This document shows positions 29,616 to 63,772 of a DNA stretch of 64,000 bases, one piece after another. The stretch's first letter is position 1; each line of letters starts with the position of its first letter. A model generated the notes under the pieces. That model ran no database searches. It had not been told where the DNA came from and was given only the letters and a program-made list of their open reading frames with translations. A program made the position numbers and the translations under genes. Source of the DNA: Roseococcus sp. (GTDB taxonomy: Bacteria; Pseudomonadota; Alphaproteobacteria; Acetobacterales; Acetobacteraceae); NCBI GenBank assembly GCA_026414745.1, contig JAOAIK010000037.1, positions 1-64,000 of the forward strand. The letters run 5' to 3'.

Positions 29616-30858
29616 GGCGCAGCATCTCCACCGGATCGGTGCGGGCGGCGCGCCAGGAGGGATAGAGGGTGGCGAGCAGCGACAGCCCGAGCGCCAGCGC
29701 CACCACCTCCGCCACCTCGCGCCAGTTGAGGACGGCGGGAAGCTGGGTGAGGAAATACACCTCCGGGCTGAACAGCTCCGTGCCCGAGAGCCCCTGGACG
29801 AACTGCCGGATGCTCTCGATGTTCAGGCAGAACAGCACCCCCGCCACGCAGCCGAGCGCGGTGCCCACCACGCCGATCAGCGCCCCGCACATCAGGAAGA
29901 TGCGCATCACCGCGCCGCGCGTGGCGCCGATGGTGCGCAGCACCGCGATGTCGCGCCCCTTGTCCTTCACCAGCATGATGAGGGAGGAGACGATGTTGAA
30001 GGCGGCGACGATGATGATCAGCGTGAGGATGAGGAACATGACGTTCCGCTCCACCTGCACCGCGGCGAAGAAGCTGGAGTTCGCGTCCTGCCAGTCGAGG
30101 ATGCGCACGGGCTGGGCGAGGGCGGCGCGGATCTCGCGGTTCGCCGCGCGCACCCGCGTCGGGTCCTGCACGAAGACCTCGATCTGCGTCGCGGCGTCGC
30201 CGGTCTGGAAGTAGAGCTGCGCGGCGGGCAGGGGGAGGAAGACGAAGCCGCTGTCGTACTCGTTCATCCCCACCTCGAAGAGCGCGACGATGGTGTAGGC
30301 GCGCAGCCGCGGCACGGTGCCGATCACCGTGGCCCTGCCCTGCGGGCTGACCAGCGTGATGCGATCCCCCACCGCCACGCCGAGCCGCGCGGCCAGCCGG
30401 GTGCCGATCACGATCGCGTCCTCGCCGCCGAAGCGCTCGAGCGAGCCGGCGCGGATGTTCTCGGCGATGATGCGCCGCGCGCGCAGGTCCTCGGGCCGGA
30501 TGCCGCGCGCGAGCCCGCCCGTGGCGCCCCCGCCCTCGGCGGTGAGCAGCACCTGCCCCTCCACGATGGGGGTGGCGGAGAGCACGCCGGGCACGCGGCG
30601 GATGGTCTCGGCCATGCGCGCGTAGTCGGGCAGGCCGCCGCGCTCGGCCGCATAGACGCCCATATGGCCGTTGAGGCCGAGGATGCGCCCGAGCAGCTCC
30701 TGCCGGAAGCCGCCCATCACGCTCATCACGATGATCAGCGTCGCCACCCCGAGCATGATGCCGAGGAAGGAGAAGGTGGCGATGACGGAGGTGAAGCGGT
30801 CGCTCTTGCGCGAGAGCAGGTAGCGGGCGGCCACCGTCCGCTCGAAGGCGTCGAACAT
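29608..30858 (-). CDS. lolC: Lipoprotein-releasing ABC transporter permease LolC/E
   Basis: [44 protein letters not shown]. Confidence 0.93.
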
Positions 30859-32171
30859 CAGCCGGCGAGCCGGGCGAGCGCGTCCTCCAGCGAGAGCTCC
30901 ATGCGCTCGCCGCTCATGCGGCGCTTGAGCTCCACGCGGCCGGCGGCGGCCCCGCGCGGGCCGATGATCGCCTGCCAGGGAAAGCCCATGAGGTCGGCGT
31001 CGGCGAACTTCACCCCGGCGCGCTCGGGGCGGTCGTCGAGCACGGCCTCGTCGGGAAAGGCGGCGTGCAGGCGCTCGGCCAGCGCGTCGCAGGCGGCGTC
31101 GCCGGGCTTGAGGTTGAGCACGGCGAGTTTCCAGGGCGCGACGGAATCCGGCCACTTGATGCCGGCCTCGTCGTGATGCGCCTCGATGATGGCGGCGACG
31201 AGGCGGGAGACGCCGATGCCGTAGCTGCCCATCTCGGGCACGATCATCTGTCCGTCCGGCCCCGCGACGGCGAGCCCCATGGGCTGCGAATACTTGGTGC
31301 CGAAATAGAAGATGTGCCCGACCTCGATGCCCCTGCCCTCGCGCCGGCGCGCCTCGGGCACCTCGGCCCAGGCGGCGGGGTCGTGCATCTCCTCGGTCGC
31401 GGCGTAGCGCGAGGTGGCGAGATCGAAGCAGGCCTTCATGTCGGCCACGCTGTCGAAGTCGAAGGCGGCCCCCGCCCAGTCGATGGTCTCGAGCTCCGCA
31501 TCGTAGAAGACGCGGCTCTCGCCCGTCTCGGCCAGGATGATGAACTCGTGGCTGAGGTTGCCGCCGATGGGGCCGGTGTCCGCGCGCATGGGCAGCGCCT
31601 TGAGGCTCATGCGCTCGAAGGTGCGCAGATAGGCGTAGAGCATCTGACGGTAGGAGTGCTGGGCGCCCTCCCTGGTCAGGTCGAAGGAGTAGGCGTCCTT
31701 CATCAGGAACTCGCGCCCGCGCATCACGCCGAAGCGGGGGCGCAGCTCGTCGCGGAACTTCCACTGGATGTGGTAGAGGTTGCGCGGCAGGTCGCGATAC
31801 GAGGTGGCGTAGGCCTTGAAGACGTCGGTGATCATCTCCTCGTTCGTCGGGCCGTAGAGCATGGGCCGGTCGTGCCGGTCGGTGATGCGCAGCATCTCCT
31901 TGCCGTAGTCCTCGTAGCGGCCGGAGCGCTGCCAGAGCTCGGCGCTCTGGATGGTGGGCATGAGGAGTTCCTGCGCACCGGCGCGGTCCTGCTCCTCGCG
32001 CACGATCTGGCTGACGCGGCGCAGCACGCGCCAGCCGGCCGGCAGCCAGGTGTAGATGCCCGCGGCGGTCTGCCGGATCAGCCCGGCGCGCAGCATCAGC
32101 CGGTGCGAGACGATCTGCGCCTCGGCCGGGGTTTCCTTGAGGGTGGGCAGGAAGGCACGGGACAGGCGCAA
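30858..32171 (-). CDS. proS: Prolyl-tRNA synthetase (start likely TTG at 32171)
   Basis: [57 protein letters not shown]. Confidence 0.94.
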
Positions 32172-32400
32172 GTCGGGGTTCCCCTTCTGACGGCAGCGGG
32201 AGAAGGCTACAGCGATTCCGGCGCTTCTGTCCCCGACCGCCGGTCGCGTCCAGCCCGCGCCCGGATGAGCCTGTCGCCCGAGGACGCGCAAGAACCGCGC
32301 GCATTCGTTTCAATAACGCACCGAAAAACGCAAGATTGCTGCGCCGCACCATGGGCGGCCAGCAAGAAAAGACTTGAAACCGGCGCCCGAAACCATTTAC

Positions 32401-32491
32401 GGAAAAGAAAGGGCCACTCCCGCGAGGGAGCGGCCCAAGTTTAGGGAGGAAACGCCAGTCACACGGCAGAAAGAGGAACATCCTCTCTCTG
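32401..32491 (-). ncRNA. Putative anti-Shine-Dalgarno small RNA, copy 1
   Basis: Minus strand: hairpin 32491-32467 (10 bp, one G-U), 13 nt, GTTTCCTCCCTAAAC at 32453-32439, 2 nt, terminator hairpin 32436-32411 (one G-U) followed by TTTCTTTT. 5' end not determined. Confidence 0.65.
32411..32436 (-). terminator. Intrinsic terminator of putative sRNA copy 1
   Basis: GGGCCGCTCCC-TCGC-GGGAGTGGCCC followed by TTTCTTTT on minus strand. Confidence 0.75.
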
Positions 32492-32774: not shown

Positions 32775-33689
32775 TCAGGCGGCGCGCGGCGTGACCTCGC
32801 GGTTCTGGCGCAGCAGCGCCGCCGTCTCGCTGACCGTGCGGCCGACTTGCGCAGCCATCGCCTTGCGGTCCGGCACCGAGTCCGGCGCCAGCACCTCGTG
32901 CATCACCACCGTCACGCGCGTGCCCGTGCGCCGCAGCAGGCGCCAGGCATGGCGTCCCGTCTCCATGTCGCCATACCAGGCGAAGAGCGGGCGATCCCGC
33001 CGGCCGAGGGGAAGCCCGCCCAGCCGGTCGTAGACGATGGTGATGGGCTGCACCGCCTCGGCCGAGCCGGCGACGGCGAAAAAGGTGGAACGGAAGGGCA
33101 GCACCCGCGTGCCGTCGCTGGTCGTGCCCTCGGGGAAGAGGATCAGGCTTTGCCCCTGCTCGAGCCGGGCGCGCATCGCCTGCGCCTCGCTGCCCGTGCG
33201 CCCGCGCGCGCGACTGACGAAAACGGTGCGACCCAGCCGCGCGATCCAGCCGATCAGCGGCCAGCCATCCACCTCCGCCTTGCTGACGAAGCGCGCATTG
33301 AGCAGCCCGCCCAGCACGATGATGTCGAGCCAGGAGGAGTGGTTCGAGACGTAGAGCGTGCGCGGCCGGCCATGTGGGGCACCGATCACCCGCAGTTTCA
33401 GCCCGATGATGCGGCAGAGGGTGCGGTGGTAGAAGCGCGGGAAGTGATCCTTCGCCGGCCCGGGCAGCCAGAGCAGCACCGCCTGGATCGCCATGCAGGG
33501 GAAGGTGAACAGCAGCGCCGTGACGATGCGCCGCACCGCCCGGAAACGCCCGCCGACCGGCCGCTCGCCCAGAACATCGTTCCATGCGGCGCCCGGCAGG
33601 CGCGGGCGGAAGCGGAGCGGGCGGCCACGCCGCAGGCGGCGGGCCTTCGGAGGGCGACTCTGGGGAAGGACGGTCTGTTCCGAGCGCAT
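32775..33689 (-). CDS. plsC: 1-acyl-sn-glycerol-3-phosphate acyltransferase
   Basis: YVSNHSSWLDIIVLGG (NHxSxxD-type), FPEGTTSDGTRVLPF. Confidence 0.9.
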   Translation of the reverse strand: MRSEQTVLPQSRPPKARRLRRGRPLRFRPRLPGAAWNDVLGERPVGGRFRAVRRIVTALLFTFPCMAIQAVLLWLPGPAKDHFPRFYHRTLCRIIGLKLRVIGAPHGRPRTLYVSNHSSWLDIIVLGGLLNARFVSKAEVDGWPLIGWIARLGRTVFVSRARGRTGSEAQAMRARLEQGQSLILFPEGTTSDGTRVLPFRSTFFAVAGSAEAVQPITIVYDRLGGLPLGRRDRPLFAWYGDMETGRHAWRLLRRTGTRVTVVMHEVLAPDSVPDRKAMAAQVGRTVSETAALLRQNREVTPRAA

Positions 33690-33816
33690 GCGGCGAGCTA
33701 TCGCCCATTCCGGGGCAGGGCAATGACGCCCGCGCGACAGGACGATGAATCCGTCACATTCCGCAAGGGCTTGCCGCCGATTGCCGGGCGCGGACGGTCG
33801 GGGCAGTGTCGCGGCG

Positions 33817-34752
33817 ATGTCTCCGGCCGATCCGCCCCTTCGAGTCGCCGTTCTCGGCGCGGGCCCGCATGGCACAGCAATGGCGGCCCTCGCTGCCGCC
33901 CATGGCCACGAGGTGGCGATCTGGTCGCCACGCGGCGGCGGCACGCGGCACATCCTGGGCCATGTGGTGACCCGCGGCGCGCTGGCCGGCCGCTGGCCGA
34001 TGCGGGTGGCGGCCGATCTCGGCCGCGCGATCGAGGGGGCGCAGGTGCTGCTCGTCTGCCTGCCGGCGCGGCTCCTGCCCGTCGCGGTGCAGCGCATCGC
34101 CGCGGCGCTGCGCGGCGATCCCGCCATCCTCTTCGCCCCCGCCGGCGGGCTCGCCGCGGCCCTGATGGCAGAGGCGCTCGCCTATCGCGGCGGGATCCCG
34201 CGCGTGGCCGCCCTGCCCGTCCTGCCCCTCACGGCGCGGCGCGATATCGATGGAGGGGTGAGCATTCCCGCCGCGCGTCCGCGCCTGTGGGTCGCGGGGC
34301 TTCCGGGGGCGCCGGCCATGGGCAAGCTGGTCGGGCGCCTGTTCAGCCTCGAGGTCGCGGCGCTGGCCGACCCGCTGGCCGCCGGCTTGGCGGACCCGAT
34401 GCCGATTCTCGGCGCGGCGCGGCTGCTCGCGCCCCCGCGGCTCGAGGAGGCGCCGCTTCGGCTGCTGGCGGCGCTGGGGCGCGAGCGCGCCAGCCTCGCT
34501 GCCGCCTGGCGCCGGCAGGTCCCGCCTTTGCACGAGATGCTGGCGGGCCTTGGCGCCCTGCCGGAGGCGGATCTCGGCGCCGCGGTCGAGGGGCTCTCCT
34601 TCCTCGCGGCCCTGGCCGGGCGGGCGAAGGCGCCACTGCCGCTGCTCACGGGCGCCCTGGCCCTGCTGCGTGCGGCGACCGGCGAGGCGGCCCAGCCCCA
34701 CCCGGTCTGGGCGGCGCTCTCGCCCGAGACCCTGGCCCGCATCCTCGCGTGA
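33817..34752 (+). CDS. NAD(P)-dependent glycerol-3-phosphate/opine dehydrogenase-like Rossmann protein
   Basis: VAVLGAGPHGTAMAALAAAHGHEVAIWSPRGGG; helical C-terminal half. Confidence 0.65.
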   Translation: MSPADPPLRVAVLGAGPHGTAMAALAAAHGHEVAIWSPRGGGTRHILGHVVTRGALAGRWPMRVAADLGRAIEGAQVLLVCLPARLLPVAVQRIAAALRGDPAILFAPAGGLAAALMAEALAYRGGIPRVAALPVLPLTARRDIDGGVSIPAARPRLWVAGLPGAPAMGKLVGRLFSLEVAALADPLAAGLADPMPILGAARLLAPPRLEEAPLRLLAALGRERASLAAAWRRQVPPLHEMLAGLGALPEADLGAAVEGLSFLAALAGRAKAPLPLLTGALALLRAATGEAAQPHPVWAALSPETLARILA

Positions 34753-38390: not shown

Positions 38391-39353
38391 TCAGTCGGCC
38401 GTGATGTTCGCCTCGCGCACCACGCTGGTCCAGAGGGCGCGGTCCTCGCGGATCATCCGGTCCACCTCCGCCCCCGGCGCGAAGCGCGGGAAGGTGCCGA
38501 GCCCGACCAGCACGCGCGGCAGGTCGGTGTTCTCGAAGATCCAGCGCAGGCTGTCCTCCAGTCGCTGGCGCACCGCGGCCGGGGTGGCGGCGGGGGCGAC
38601 GATCGCCTGCCAGCTGGTGAACACCCAGTCGAGCCCCTGTTCCTTGACCGTCGGCACATCGGGAAGCTGAGGGTGGCGCTCGGCGGAGGTGATGGCGATC
38701 ACGCGCACGCGCCCGCCCTCGTGCGCGCCGCGCATCAGGGAGTAGCCGTCCAGCATCATCTGGATGCGGCCCCCGAGCAGATCCTGCAGCGCCGGGGCGG
38801 AGCCGCGATAGGGCACATGCACGATGTCCACACCCGCCTGACGCTTCCACACCTCGAAGGCGAGATGCGGCACGCCGCCCGAGCCGCCGGAGCCGAAGTT
38901 CAGCGCGCCGGGCCGCGCCCGCGCCGCCGCGACCAGGTCGGCGAGGCTGCGGATCGGGCTGTCGGCATTCACCGCGAAGACGAGCGGGCCGAGGGTGAGC
39001 TGCCCCACCGCGCGGAAATCGCGCGAGGTGTCGAAGGGAAGATTGGGGAAGAGCGCGTGGGTCATGGCGAGGTTGCCCACATTCCCCTGGAACAGCGTGG
39101 TGCCGTCGGGCGGGGATTTCGCCACATGGTCCATGGCGATGTTGCCGTTGTTGCCGGGCCGGTTGTCGATCACGACGGGCTGGCCGAGCCGCTCGGCCCA
39201 GCGCTGGGCCACGGGCCGCGCGATGGAATCCACCCCGCCCCCGGCCGGGAAGCCGACAACGAGGCGAATGGCCCCCGACTGGGCCCGGGCCAGCCCTGGT
39301 GCGGCGAGCAGCAGCGCGGAGGCGCCGAAGGCGGCGCGGCGGCGGATGGGCAT
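38391..39353 (-). CDS. Bug family tripartite tricarboxylate transporter substrate-binding protein
   Basis: IRLVVGFPAGGGVDSIARPVAQRWAERLGQPVVIDNRPGNNGNIAMDHVAKSPPDG. Confidence 0.93.
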   Translation of the reverse strand: MPIRRRAAFGASALLLAAPGLARAQSGAIRLVVGFPAGGGVDSIARPVAQRWAERLGQPVVIDNRPGNNGNIAMDHVAKSPPDGTTLFQGNVGNLAMTHALFPNLPFDTSRDFRAVGQLTLGPLVFAVNADSPIRSLADLVAAARARPGALNFGSGGSGGVPHLAFEVWKRQAGVDIVHVPYRGSAPALQDLLGGRIQMMLDGYSLMRGAHEGGRVRVIAITSAERHPQLPDVPTVKEQGLDWVFTSWQAIVAPAATPAAVRQRLEDSLRWIFENTDLPRVLVGLGTFPRFAPGAEVDRMIREDRALWTSVVREANITAD

Positions 39354-39356
39354 GGT

Positions 39357-39367
39357 GTTTCCTCCCT
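39357..39367 (-). promoter_or_regulatory. Ribosome-binding leader of Bug gene; putative sRNA target site
   Basis: mRNA AGGGAGGAAAC (then ACCATG) is exact complement of GTTTCCTCCCT in both putative sRNAs. Confidence 0.5.
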
Positions 39368-61710: not shown

Positions 61711-62337
61711 ATGCTGAGGATCTGGGGGCGGGCCAACTCGTCCAACGTCATGAAGGTGCTCTGGCTCTGCGAGGAGCTCGGCATCCCCTTCGAGCGCATC
61801 GACGCCGGCGGCGCCTTCGGCCGCACGCGGGAGCCCGCCTACCTCGCCATGAACCCGAATGCCCGCGTGCCCACCATCGAGGAGCCGGACGGCTTCACCC
61901 TGTGGGAGAGCAACACGATCTGCCGCTACCTCGTCGCGACGCGGGCGCCCGGCCATGCGCTGCACCCCGCCGATCCGCGCCAGCGGGCGCGCATCGAACG
62001 CTGGATGGACTGGCAACTCGGCCACCTCAACGCACCGATGACGACCCTCTTTTTCACCTACGTCCGGACGCCCGAGGAAAAACGCAACTGGCCCGCCACC
62101 CACGCCGCGCGCGACGAGGCCGAGGCGCTGTGGGACATGGTGGAGGGCGCGCTGGAGAGCCACGACTTCCTGGGGGGCGCGGCGCTCAGCCTCGCCGACA
62201 TCGCGCTCGGCCCCTACCTGCATCGCTGGCTCAAGCTGCCCATTGCGCGCAAGCCCCAGCCGCGCCTCGCCGGCTGGTATGAGCGACTGTGCCGGCGTCC
62301 GGGCTACAACCGCCATGTCGCCGTGGAGATGAGCTGA
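61711..62337 (+). CDS. Glutathione S-transferase family protein
   Basis: IWGRANSSNVMKVLWLCEELGIPFERIDAGGAFGR...NPNARVPTIEEPDGFTLWESNTICRYL. Confidence 0.94.
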   Translation: MLRIWGRANSSNVMKVLWLCEELGIPFERIDAGGAFGRTREPAYLAMNPNARVPTIEEPDGFTLWESNTICRYLVATRAPGHALHPADPRQRARIERWMDWQLGHLNAPMTTLFFTYVRTPEEKRNWPATHAARDEAEALWDMVEGALESHDFLGGAALSLADIALGPYLHRWLKLPIARKPQPRLAGWYERLCRRPGYNRHVAVEMS

Positions 62338-62790
62338 TGCGCATGGCGGCCGCCCTCGCGCCGGTCATGCTCCCTGTTCCCGCCCCCGGCCGTGGCGTGG
62401 CCGAGCCGGGCCAAGGGGCGGCCCGGCGAATCGGGGCGGCGCGATCGGGGCGGCGCGCGCTCTTCGCCTCGCGCGATCTCGGCATCGCATGGCCGCGGCC
62501 ACGGACGGAGGCTTCGGCGCCCATCTGATCCGCGCCATTCCCGGCCGCCATGCCGAGCCGCAGGGACGGCTGCGCGCGCTCGCCGTGCCGATGGCCAGAG
62601 GGGTGACGAGCCGGGCGCGATCCGACGCCGAGGAGATCGGCGAGGTGCGGCTGACGGCCGGCAGCGCGGCGCCGCAACGGCCCCCCGGCCGTCATCGGGA
62701 ACTGGCGCATGCGAGAGATCTGCCCCTGCCGAGATCGCCTCCCCCGAAACCGTTCGTTGCGCCGCCTGCCCCGGCCCCCTGAGGGCGGGG

Positions 62791-62820
62791 AAAAAAAAGG
62801 CGGTGCGTCGCCGCACCGCC
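62791..62820 (-). terminator. Intrinsic terminator of putative sRNA copy 2
   Basis: Perfect 9-bp GC-rich stem followed by eight T on minus strand. Confidence 0.85.
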
Positions 62821-62876
62821 GAGTTTAGGGAGGAAACGTCCAAGAAAGCGGGCAGGAACCGGAATCCCTGCCGCCC
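62791..62876 (-). ncRNA. Putative anti-Shine-Dalgarno small RNA, copy 2
   Basis: Minus strand: hairpin 62872-62851 (one G-U), 13 nt, GTTTCCTCCCTAAAC at 62837-62823, 2 nt, terminator GGCGGTGCG-GCGA-CGCACCGCC + T8. 5' end inferred from promoter-like CTTGCG-N17-CTAGAA. Confidence 0.7.
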
Positions 62877-62881
62877 CCCTC

Positions 62882-62910
62882 TTCTAGGGGAAGGATCGTT
62901 CGCACGCAAG
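62882..62910 (-). promoter_or_regulatory. Candidate sigma-70-type promoter for sRNA copy 2
   Basis: CTTGCG (62910-62905), 17-bp spacer, CTAGAA (62887-62882); predicted start falls just before the 5' hairpin. Confidence 0.35.
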
Positions 62911-63001
62911 CGATTTTTCGCATTGCAGCATTGCGCCGCCGCGCGAGGCCGGCGTCGCGCAGCGAATGTCCGGCTGGCATGGGGCTTGCGCTCGGGGGCA
63001 C

Positions 63002-63772
63002 ATGGCCCGCCGCCCCCGCCTCCTCCTCTTCCCGCTCCTCGCGCTGCTGCTGCTCGCGCTCTCCGGGCCCAGCCGCGCCGGCAGGAGCCCCGATCCCACC
63101 GAACTCTGCCGTGCGGCCATCGCCCGGGCGGAGCAGGAGGCGAACATCCCTCCGGGCCTGCTGCAGGCCATCGGGCGGGTGGAGTCGGGCCGGCGCAACC
63201 CCGAGACGGGCGCCTTCGGCCCCTGGCCCTGGACGATTCATGCCGAGGGACGCGGCCAATTCTTCCCGGACCGGGCAAGCGCGGTCGCCGCGGTGCGGGA
63301 GATGCAGGGCAGGGGCGTGCGCCTGATCGATGTCGGCTGCATGCAGGTGAACCTGCACCACCACCCCCGCGCCTTCGCAAGCCTGGAGGAGGCCTTCGAC
63401 CCCTGGGCCAATGCCCGCTACGCGGCCCGCTTCCTGACGGAGCTGCATGCCGCGCGGCCGGACTGGATGGTGGCCGCGGGACATTACCACTCGCACACGC
63501 CGGACCTCGCCGAGGCCTATCGCGCGCGTGTGCGCCAGGCCTGGCCAGAGGCGCAGGCACGCCTTGCGGAGGACCGGTCGCTCGGCGCGCGTCTGGCGGG
63601 ACTGCCGGCGCCGCTCACGGCGCTCTCCCTCTCCAACCGGCCCGAGCGTGCCCAGGTCATTGCCGCCCCCGCCGCCGCGGGGCGGGGACTCGACGCCTAT
63701 CGCGCCCAGCCCGTACCCCTCGCCTCGCGGGCCTTCCTTGCCGTCACCACGGGCGCTTCGCTGCGCCGGTGA
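63002..63772 (+). CDS. Lytic transglycosylase (SLT domain) protein
   Basis: Signal-like N-terminus; ANIPPGLLQAIGRVESGRRNPETGAFGPWPWTIHAEGRGQFF...DVGCMQVNLHHHP. Confidence 0.9.
   Translation: MARRPRLLLFPLLALLLLALSGPSRAGRSPDPTELCRAAIARAEQEANIPPGLLQAIGRVESGRRNPETGAFGPWPWTIHAEGRGQFFPDRASAVAAVREMQGRGVRLIDVGCMQVNLHHHPRAFASLEEAFDPWANARYAARFLTELHAARPDWMVAAGHYHSHTPDLAEAYRARVRQAWPEAQARLAEDRSLGARLAGLPAPLTALSLSNRPERAQVIAAPAAAGRGLDAYRAQPVPLASRAFLAVTTGASLRR

Follow-up and report, generated by a model that had tools for sequence, protein, structure and literature searches.

Two alpha-r8 (suhB/mmgR) small RNA loci in Roseococcus and their predicted link to TctC/Bug solute receptors

Introduction

A stretch of 64,000 nucleotides from the genome of Roseococcus sp. 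(in the following, the window) carries two short modules on the minus strand, located about 30 kb apart, which share an identical 15-mer directly in front of a terminator. The original prediction read both as copies of an sRNA gene under selection for RNA structure, the second one equipped with a candidate promoter. This raises the question of whether the modules are indeed sRNA genes, to which family they belong and which genes they would regulate. The answer leads to alpha-r8, an sRNA family that is present in most alphaproteobacteria and for which, to our knowledge, no base-paired target had been proven until 2025.

Results

The gene termed copy 2 (62791..62876, minus strand) has a predicted transcript of about 84-86 nt, and a direct reading of the minus strand confirmed the proposed anatomy to the letter. 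The 5' hairpin GGCAGGGATTCCGGTTCCTGCC (62851..62872, minus strand, read 62872-62851), identified by folding, is followed by the single-stranded seed GUUUCCUCCCUAAAC (62823..62837, minus strand), which had been read as the 15-mer GTTTCCTCCCTAAAC and is near-invariant in the ortholog alignments. A TC separates the 15-mer from an intrinsic terminator (62791..62820, minus strand), in which a 9 bp stem (GGCGGTGCG-GCGA-CGCACCGCC, 62820-62799) precedes the T8 that forms the 3' end (62798-62791). The claimed spacing of exactly 13 nt between hairpin and seed is correct as read, but it depends on where the hairpin is closed: the folded stem continues beyond a bulge to 62848-62874, and the gap shrinks to 10 nt if this part is counted. 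Copy 1, as defined by the ortholog alignment, is located upstream of proS (32403..32491, minus strand), and the 15-mer search placed its seed GUUUCCUCCCUAAAC at 32439..32453 (minus strand); its terminator consists of 11 bp plus TTTCTTTT. The identity of the 15-mer in both copies is far beyond chance, with two matches in the window at up to two mismatches compared to 0.01 expected by shuffling. It had also been considered that the 15-mer might be no more common near terminators than elsewhere, but it occurs exactly twice in the 3.2 Mb assembly and in both cases 2 nt before a terminator. Both copies fold far more stably than their shuffled versions (z-scores of -3.25 and -3.92), and none of 200 shuffles was as good.

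Both loci are members of the known alpha-r8 (suhB/mmgR) family, as shown by full-length matches (1-77) to RF00519 with 53.0 bits for copy 2 (62784-62860) and 48.8 bits for copy 1 (32397-32474) at a gathering cut-off of 41 bits. This recognition by Rfam supports the sRNA genes that had been predicted from sequence. RF00519 was the sole family reported at either locus in a search of all Rfam families, and the AbcR model (alpha-r15) gave no match. The 10-mer UUUCCUCCCU, which defines alpha-r8 (PMC12559287), is contained in the copy 2 seed, is found in both copies and is mostly unpaired in the folds, and a Rho-independent terminator follows directly 3' of the core in both cases. Linkage to an N-formylglutamate amidohydrolase gene is absent at both loci, where the neighbors are SLT and glutathione S-transferase (GST) genes for copy 2 and acyltransferase and proS genes for copy 1; sisA of Caulobacter crescentus adjoins such an amidohydrolase gene, a linkage that is stated for most species and is common but not defining. 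Among 60 relatives, 43 contain a match to RF00519 above the cut-off, usually two to four per genome. A literature search on suhB in Acetobacteraceae returned nothing relevant.

For the analysis of conservation we used the matches from 20 in-genus genomes, that is, from the genus-level group including Rubritepida flocculans and Roseococcus (Acetobacteraceae), together with those of genome G021 from a neighboring genus. The orthologs split cleanly into group A, which contains copy 2, and group B, which contains copy 1. Structural conservation of the 5' hairpin and the terminator was evaluated over 20 pairs in 21 sequences of group A, based on a plain MAFFT alignment. Standard pairs are present in 96.9% of the cells, and changes on both sides were found at 10 of the 20 pairs; shuffles gave 4.1 and slid controls 2-5 such pairs, and 0 of 500 shuffles reached 10. 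In the 5' hairpin, compensatory changes affect 7 of 11 pairs, and the terminator is paired in 100% of the cells with both-side changes at three pairs. The idea of RNA-structure selection was therefore right for copy 2, whereas the support is weaker for group B and resides mostly in the terminator, because the 5' half of these sequences barely varies; in particular, the hairpin before the 10-mer of copy 1 (UGCC...GGCG) is invariant and hence uninformative on covariation. The P1 stem of the Rfam model, located ahead of the seed, lacks support for copy 2, as it is only 73% paired in group A and shows no covariation; it is the more distal 5' hairpin that covaries.

To which mRNAs would such a seed bind? 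The assembly contains five sites with the complement AGGGAGGAAA. Two of these sites are the sRNAs themselves, and all three others are ribosome-binding sites located 3-5 nt ahead of an ATG that opens a long reading frame. Two of the three belong to TctC/Bug receptors, one of them within the window and only 7 kb from copy 1. This predicted target, tctC, encodes a TctC/Bug tricarboxylate transporter receptor (38391..39353, minus strand; Pfam TctC, 209 bits), and its Shine-Dalgarno (SD) sequence AGGGAGGAAAC (39357..39367, minus strand) is a perfect 11-nt complement of the seed with a duplex energy of -22.0 kcal/mol. Genus-wide, 14 of the 22 AGGGAGGAAAC sites followed by ATG stand at the start of TctC genes (9 of about 17 with each ortholog group counted once), and the reversed pattern yielded one site in all. 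The own genome gave a similar picture for 586 genes from about 0.78 Mb of stretches, which were chosen partly around TctC genes and in which a simple home-made program called the genes and their starts: at least seven contiguous seed matches were found in 18 of 56 TctC leaders and in 32 of 530 other genes (P = 6e-8). At the family level, TctC accounts for 3 of 30 sites, and many of the others resemble other exported solute-binding proteins, as judged by the N-terminus and not by a family scan. A literature search on TctC in combination with small RNAs returned nothing relevant. As a side observation, the 3.2 Mb assembly contains 103 TctC/Bug receptor matches, which represents a large expansion.

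The most serious alternative accepts both loci as alpha-r8 sRNAs but explains the TctC link as a by-product of strong SD sequences in highly expressed exported proteins, with the real targets being others such as phasins, TonB receptors or metabolic genes. Strong SD sequences resemble the complement of the seed, and SD strength accordingly accounts for part of the TctC signal. In line with this, the pairing with the 16S tail is somewhat better in TctC leaders (-10.2 versus -8.8), 8 of 30 sites of the one-mismatch form AHGGAGGAAAC already belong to TctC genes, and a TonB-dependent receptor is among the targets of SisA in Caulobacter (PMC12559287). For leaders with at least seven matches, 19 of 400 flank-permuted seeds equaled the count of the real seed. 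However, the seed effect persists after stratification by the strength of 16S pairing (P = 2e-4). Among flank-permuted seeds that keep CCTCCC, 0 of 400 reached the mean difference of the real seed (1.41 compared to 0.90 on average). Furthermore, exact sites are richer in TctC genes than one-mismatch sites (14/22 versus 8/30, P = 0.008). We had considered AHGGAGGAAAC as a clean negative control, but it keeps 9 nt of the complement and so provides a gradient only. In the non-alphaproteobacterium G121, which has 39 TctC matches but no RF00519, 0 of 30 leaders passed compared to 6 of 27 and 7 of 8 TctC leaders in RF00519-bearing alphaproteobacteria, a contrast that is confounded by phylogeny, as all alpha-r8-positive genomes tested are alphaproteobacteria. 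Taken together, the seed matches slightly favor the expanded TctC/Bug family as the predicted largest target class in this clade, and the explanation by SD strength stays a serious competitor at somewhat less than even odds.

Two other candidate classes of pairing partners were rejected. Phasin mRNAs do not appear to be direct targets, since their leaders pair weakly (-7.0 kcal/mol) or moderately (-16.0 kcal/mol) with the seed compared to -22.0 to -24.5 kcal/mol at perfect ribosome-binding sites. A CrfA-like perfect-complement sponge, which is a Caulobacter feature, is also missing: the only perfect complements of the 10-mer outside the sRNAs in the own assembly are the three ribosome-binding sites.

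The proposed promoter of copy 2, CTTGCG-N17-CTAGAA (62882..62910, minus strand; -35 at 62910-62905, -10 at 62887-62882), is well conserved, as CTTGC[AG]-N17-[CG]TA is aligned in 20 of 20 in-genus orthologous loci with CTTGCA-N17-CTATAT as typical form. Transcription is predicted to start 6-8 nt past the -10 element. The -10 element of copy 1, which had been described as weak, is weak in its orthologs too. Directly upstream of the copy 2 -35 element we found a PhaR/AniA-like box, TGCAATGCG (62919..62927, minus strand). Its consensus TGCANYGCA (TGCA-N-YGCA) is matched exactly by 16 of the 22 group A orthologs and with one deviating base by the six others including the window, so that a relaxed form covers 22/22; among 552 background windows, 1 contains an exact match, and the box is absent upstream of 20 of 20 group B orthologs. 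The same form of box is reported for PhaR/AniA sites of phasin genes and of Sinorhizobium meliloti mmgR, where it is supported by gel shifts and PhaR binds the mmgR promoter (PMC12542648). Two phasin genes in the own genome carry related palindromic boxes, and PhaR was found in 11 of 12 in-genus relatives examined. We infer that the copy 2 box is a PhaR site that would act on the sRNA and not on the divergent SLT gene, but as it is positioned between divergent genes it could serve the SLT gene instead. On balance, the conservation of the box points slightly toward a control of copy 2 by a PhaR/AniA-type regulator, so that the carbon-storage status might set the uptake of organic acids.

The window itself departs from group A in this region, with CTAGAA instead of CTATAT as -10 element and TGCAATGCG instead of TGCAATGCA as box, and PhaR was not found in its own assembly, which is 91.5% complete. 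These deviations may reflect either a loss of this input in the source strain or an assembly gap.

The genomic neighborhood bears on two further explanations. A divergent SLT transglycosylase gene (62966..63772, plus strand; Pfam SLT) is present at every group A member, and a GST gene (61711..62337, plus strand; Pfam GST), which is convergent with copy 2 and carries the 8-nt seed match GAGGGAGGA in its leader, is usually found on the opposite side. The conserved neighbor of copy 1 is proS, encoding proline--tRNA ligase (30858..32291, minus strand; NCBIfam PRK12325, 697 bits), which is located downstream at 18 of the 19 group B loci from within the genus and also in G021; the similarity does not begin before residue 40, which places the actual start near 32171. 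Since proS follows copy 1 on the minus strand after about 230 nt, one might regard the element as what is left of the terminator and leader of a neighboring gene, either a 3' UTR or an attenuator, and not as a free sRNA. This is very improbable: a conserved promoter belongs to copy 2 itself, which is oriented divergently from the SLT gene and convergently with the GST gene; terminators close both units; and in Sinorhizobium and Caulobacter, the sRNAs of this family are free molecules bound by Hfq (PMC8401924, PMC12559287). The least probable explanation, a recent tandem-type duplication without separate roles, might be suggested by the identical 15-mers at a distance of 30 kb and by a similar distance of 26 kb in the close relative G010, but it is contradicted by the separate ortholog group, promoter, 5' hairpin and neighbor of each copy across the genus and in G021 and by genomes such as G003 and G004, in which the copies are located on different contigs or Mb apart. 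Copies 1 and 2 represent two ancient ortholog groups, which have the seed in common, whereas their promoters, 5' hairpins and terminator sequences are different; therefore, they are siblings in the manner of SisA-D and not the outcome of a recent duplication.

Two minor observations concern these neighborhoods. G015 has two group A copies (L082, L083), each of which is accompanied by a separate pair of SLT and GST genes; with a listed contamination of 7%, this genome is likely to be a mixed bin. An OlsA-like acyltransferase gene upstream of copy 1 (32775-34127 of the window) is shared only with G010, and no match to it was found upstream of the copy 1 orthologs in the other relatives.

Discussion

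We consider it highly probable (about 0.85) that both loci encode trans-acting alpha-r8 sRNAs whose seed blocks SD sequences, probably together with Hfq. Beyond the original prediction, the family turned out to be already described, the copies are ancient separate loci and the conserved loop is an anti-SD seed. Each RNA would carry a 5' hairpin and a Rho-independent terminator, with GUUUCCUCCCUAAAC between them as the unpaired seed. The U-run of such a terminator is a normal landing site for Hfq. The seed would pair with AGGGAGGAAA-type SD sequences just ahead of start codons and thereby stop ribosome loading, probably in an Hfq-dependent manner. Many nutrient-uptake genes have a start site that matches this seed, so the sRNA probably silences them, which would result in translational repression of solute-uptake genes in trans, with copy 2 being coupled to carbon storage. 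The promoter of copy 1 differs, so the same seed would appear under a different signal.

This mechanism is modeled on SisA of C. crescentus, which pairs with an mRNA leader via the 10-mer, as tested by a point mutation of the seed and its compensation (PMC12559287); having the same 10-mer, the two Roseococcus RNAs are inferred to act by anti-SD repression as well. The alpha-r8 RNAs SisA-D also resemble the situation described here in that several siblings with unrelated promoters share one 10-mer and pair with leaders in an anti-SD manner (PMC12559287). MmgR of S. meliloti (alpha-r8, RF00519) is similar in its seed UUUCCUCCCU, its terminator and its size, and in the PhaR/AniA-type box at its promoter (PMC12542648). 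On the other hand, mmgR is a single-copy gene in S. meliloti (PMC12559287), whereas two main copies with different neighbors are present here; the box is located upstream of the -35 element, whereas the mmgR motif lies between -35 and -10 according to a review (PMC8401924); and, unlike in the MmgR comparison case, the phasin leaders are not strong seed matches.

The repression of periplasmic solute-binding protein mRNAs by the anti-SD motifs of AbcR1/2 (alpha-r15) and NfeR1 (alpha-r14) is a parallel to our proposal (PMC8844928). These RNAs belong to different families and target the binding proteins of ABC transporters, whereas TctC receptors are the predicted targets here. In this respect, anti-SD sRNAs directed at mRNAs of solute-binding proteins have a precedent in AbcR and NfeR1 (PMC8844928).

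Family and mechanism are already known from MmgR and SisA; the new parts are the predicted TctC regulon and the putative PhaR wiring in Acetobacteraceae. A regulon of about a hundred related receptors in combination with a PhaR-type box would form a testable circuit from carbon storage to nutrient uptake and would give a candidate role to an sRNA family of mostly unknown function. It is conceivable, but rather unlikely in this generality, that alpha-r8 RNAs are general repressors of TctC/Bug receptors across alphaproteobacteria, that the leaders keep AGGGAGGAAA-type SD sequences for this purpose, and that the copy 2 type of the Acetobacteraceae is controlled by PhaR to link organic acid uptake to the carbon store.

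Finally, the genomes contain weaker relatives of the two loci. A third RF00519 candidate in the own genome scores 31.2 bits (C39:14528), and further ones are likely chance matches. This candidate falls into a divergent sRNA-like group with GACAGCTTTGCCTTCCTCAACCTTG and a terminator (C39:14528-14598, designated L096, as well as L045, L054, L067, L070, L088 and L095), which is kept in at least seven in-genus genomes, reaches about 30 bits for RF00519 and is devoid of the CCUCCC seed; it is possibly a separate, unnamed sRNA family. In addition, third siblings with a TTTCCTCCC core and an altered 3' half were detected (L041, L061, L066, L076, L081, L085, L091 and L094), most of which score below the Rfam cut-off.
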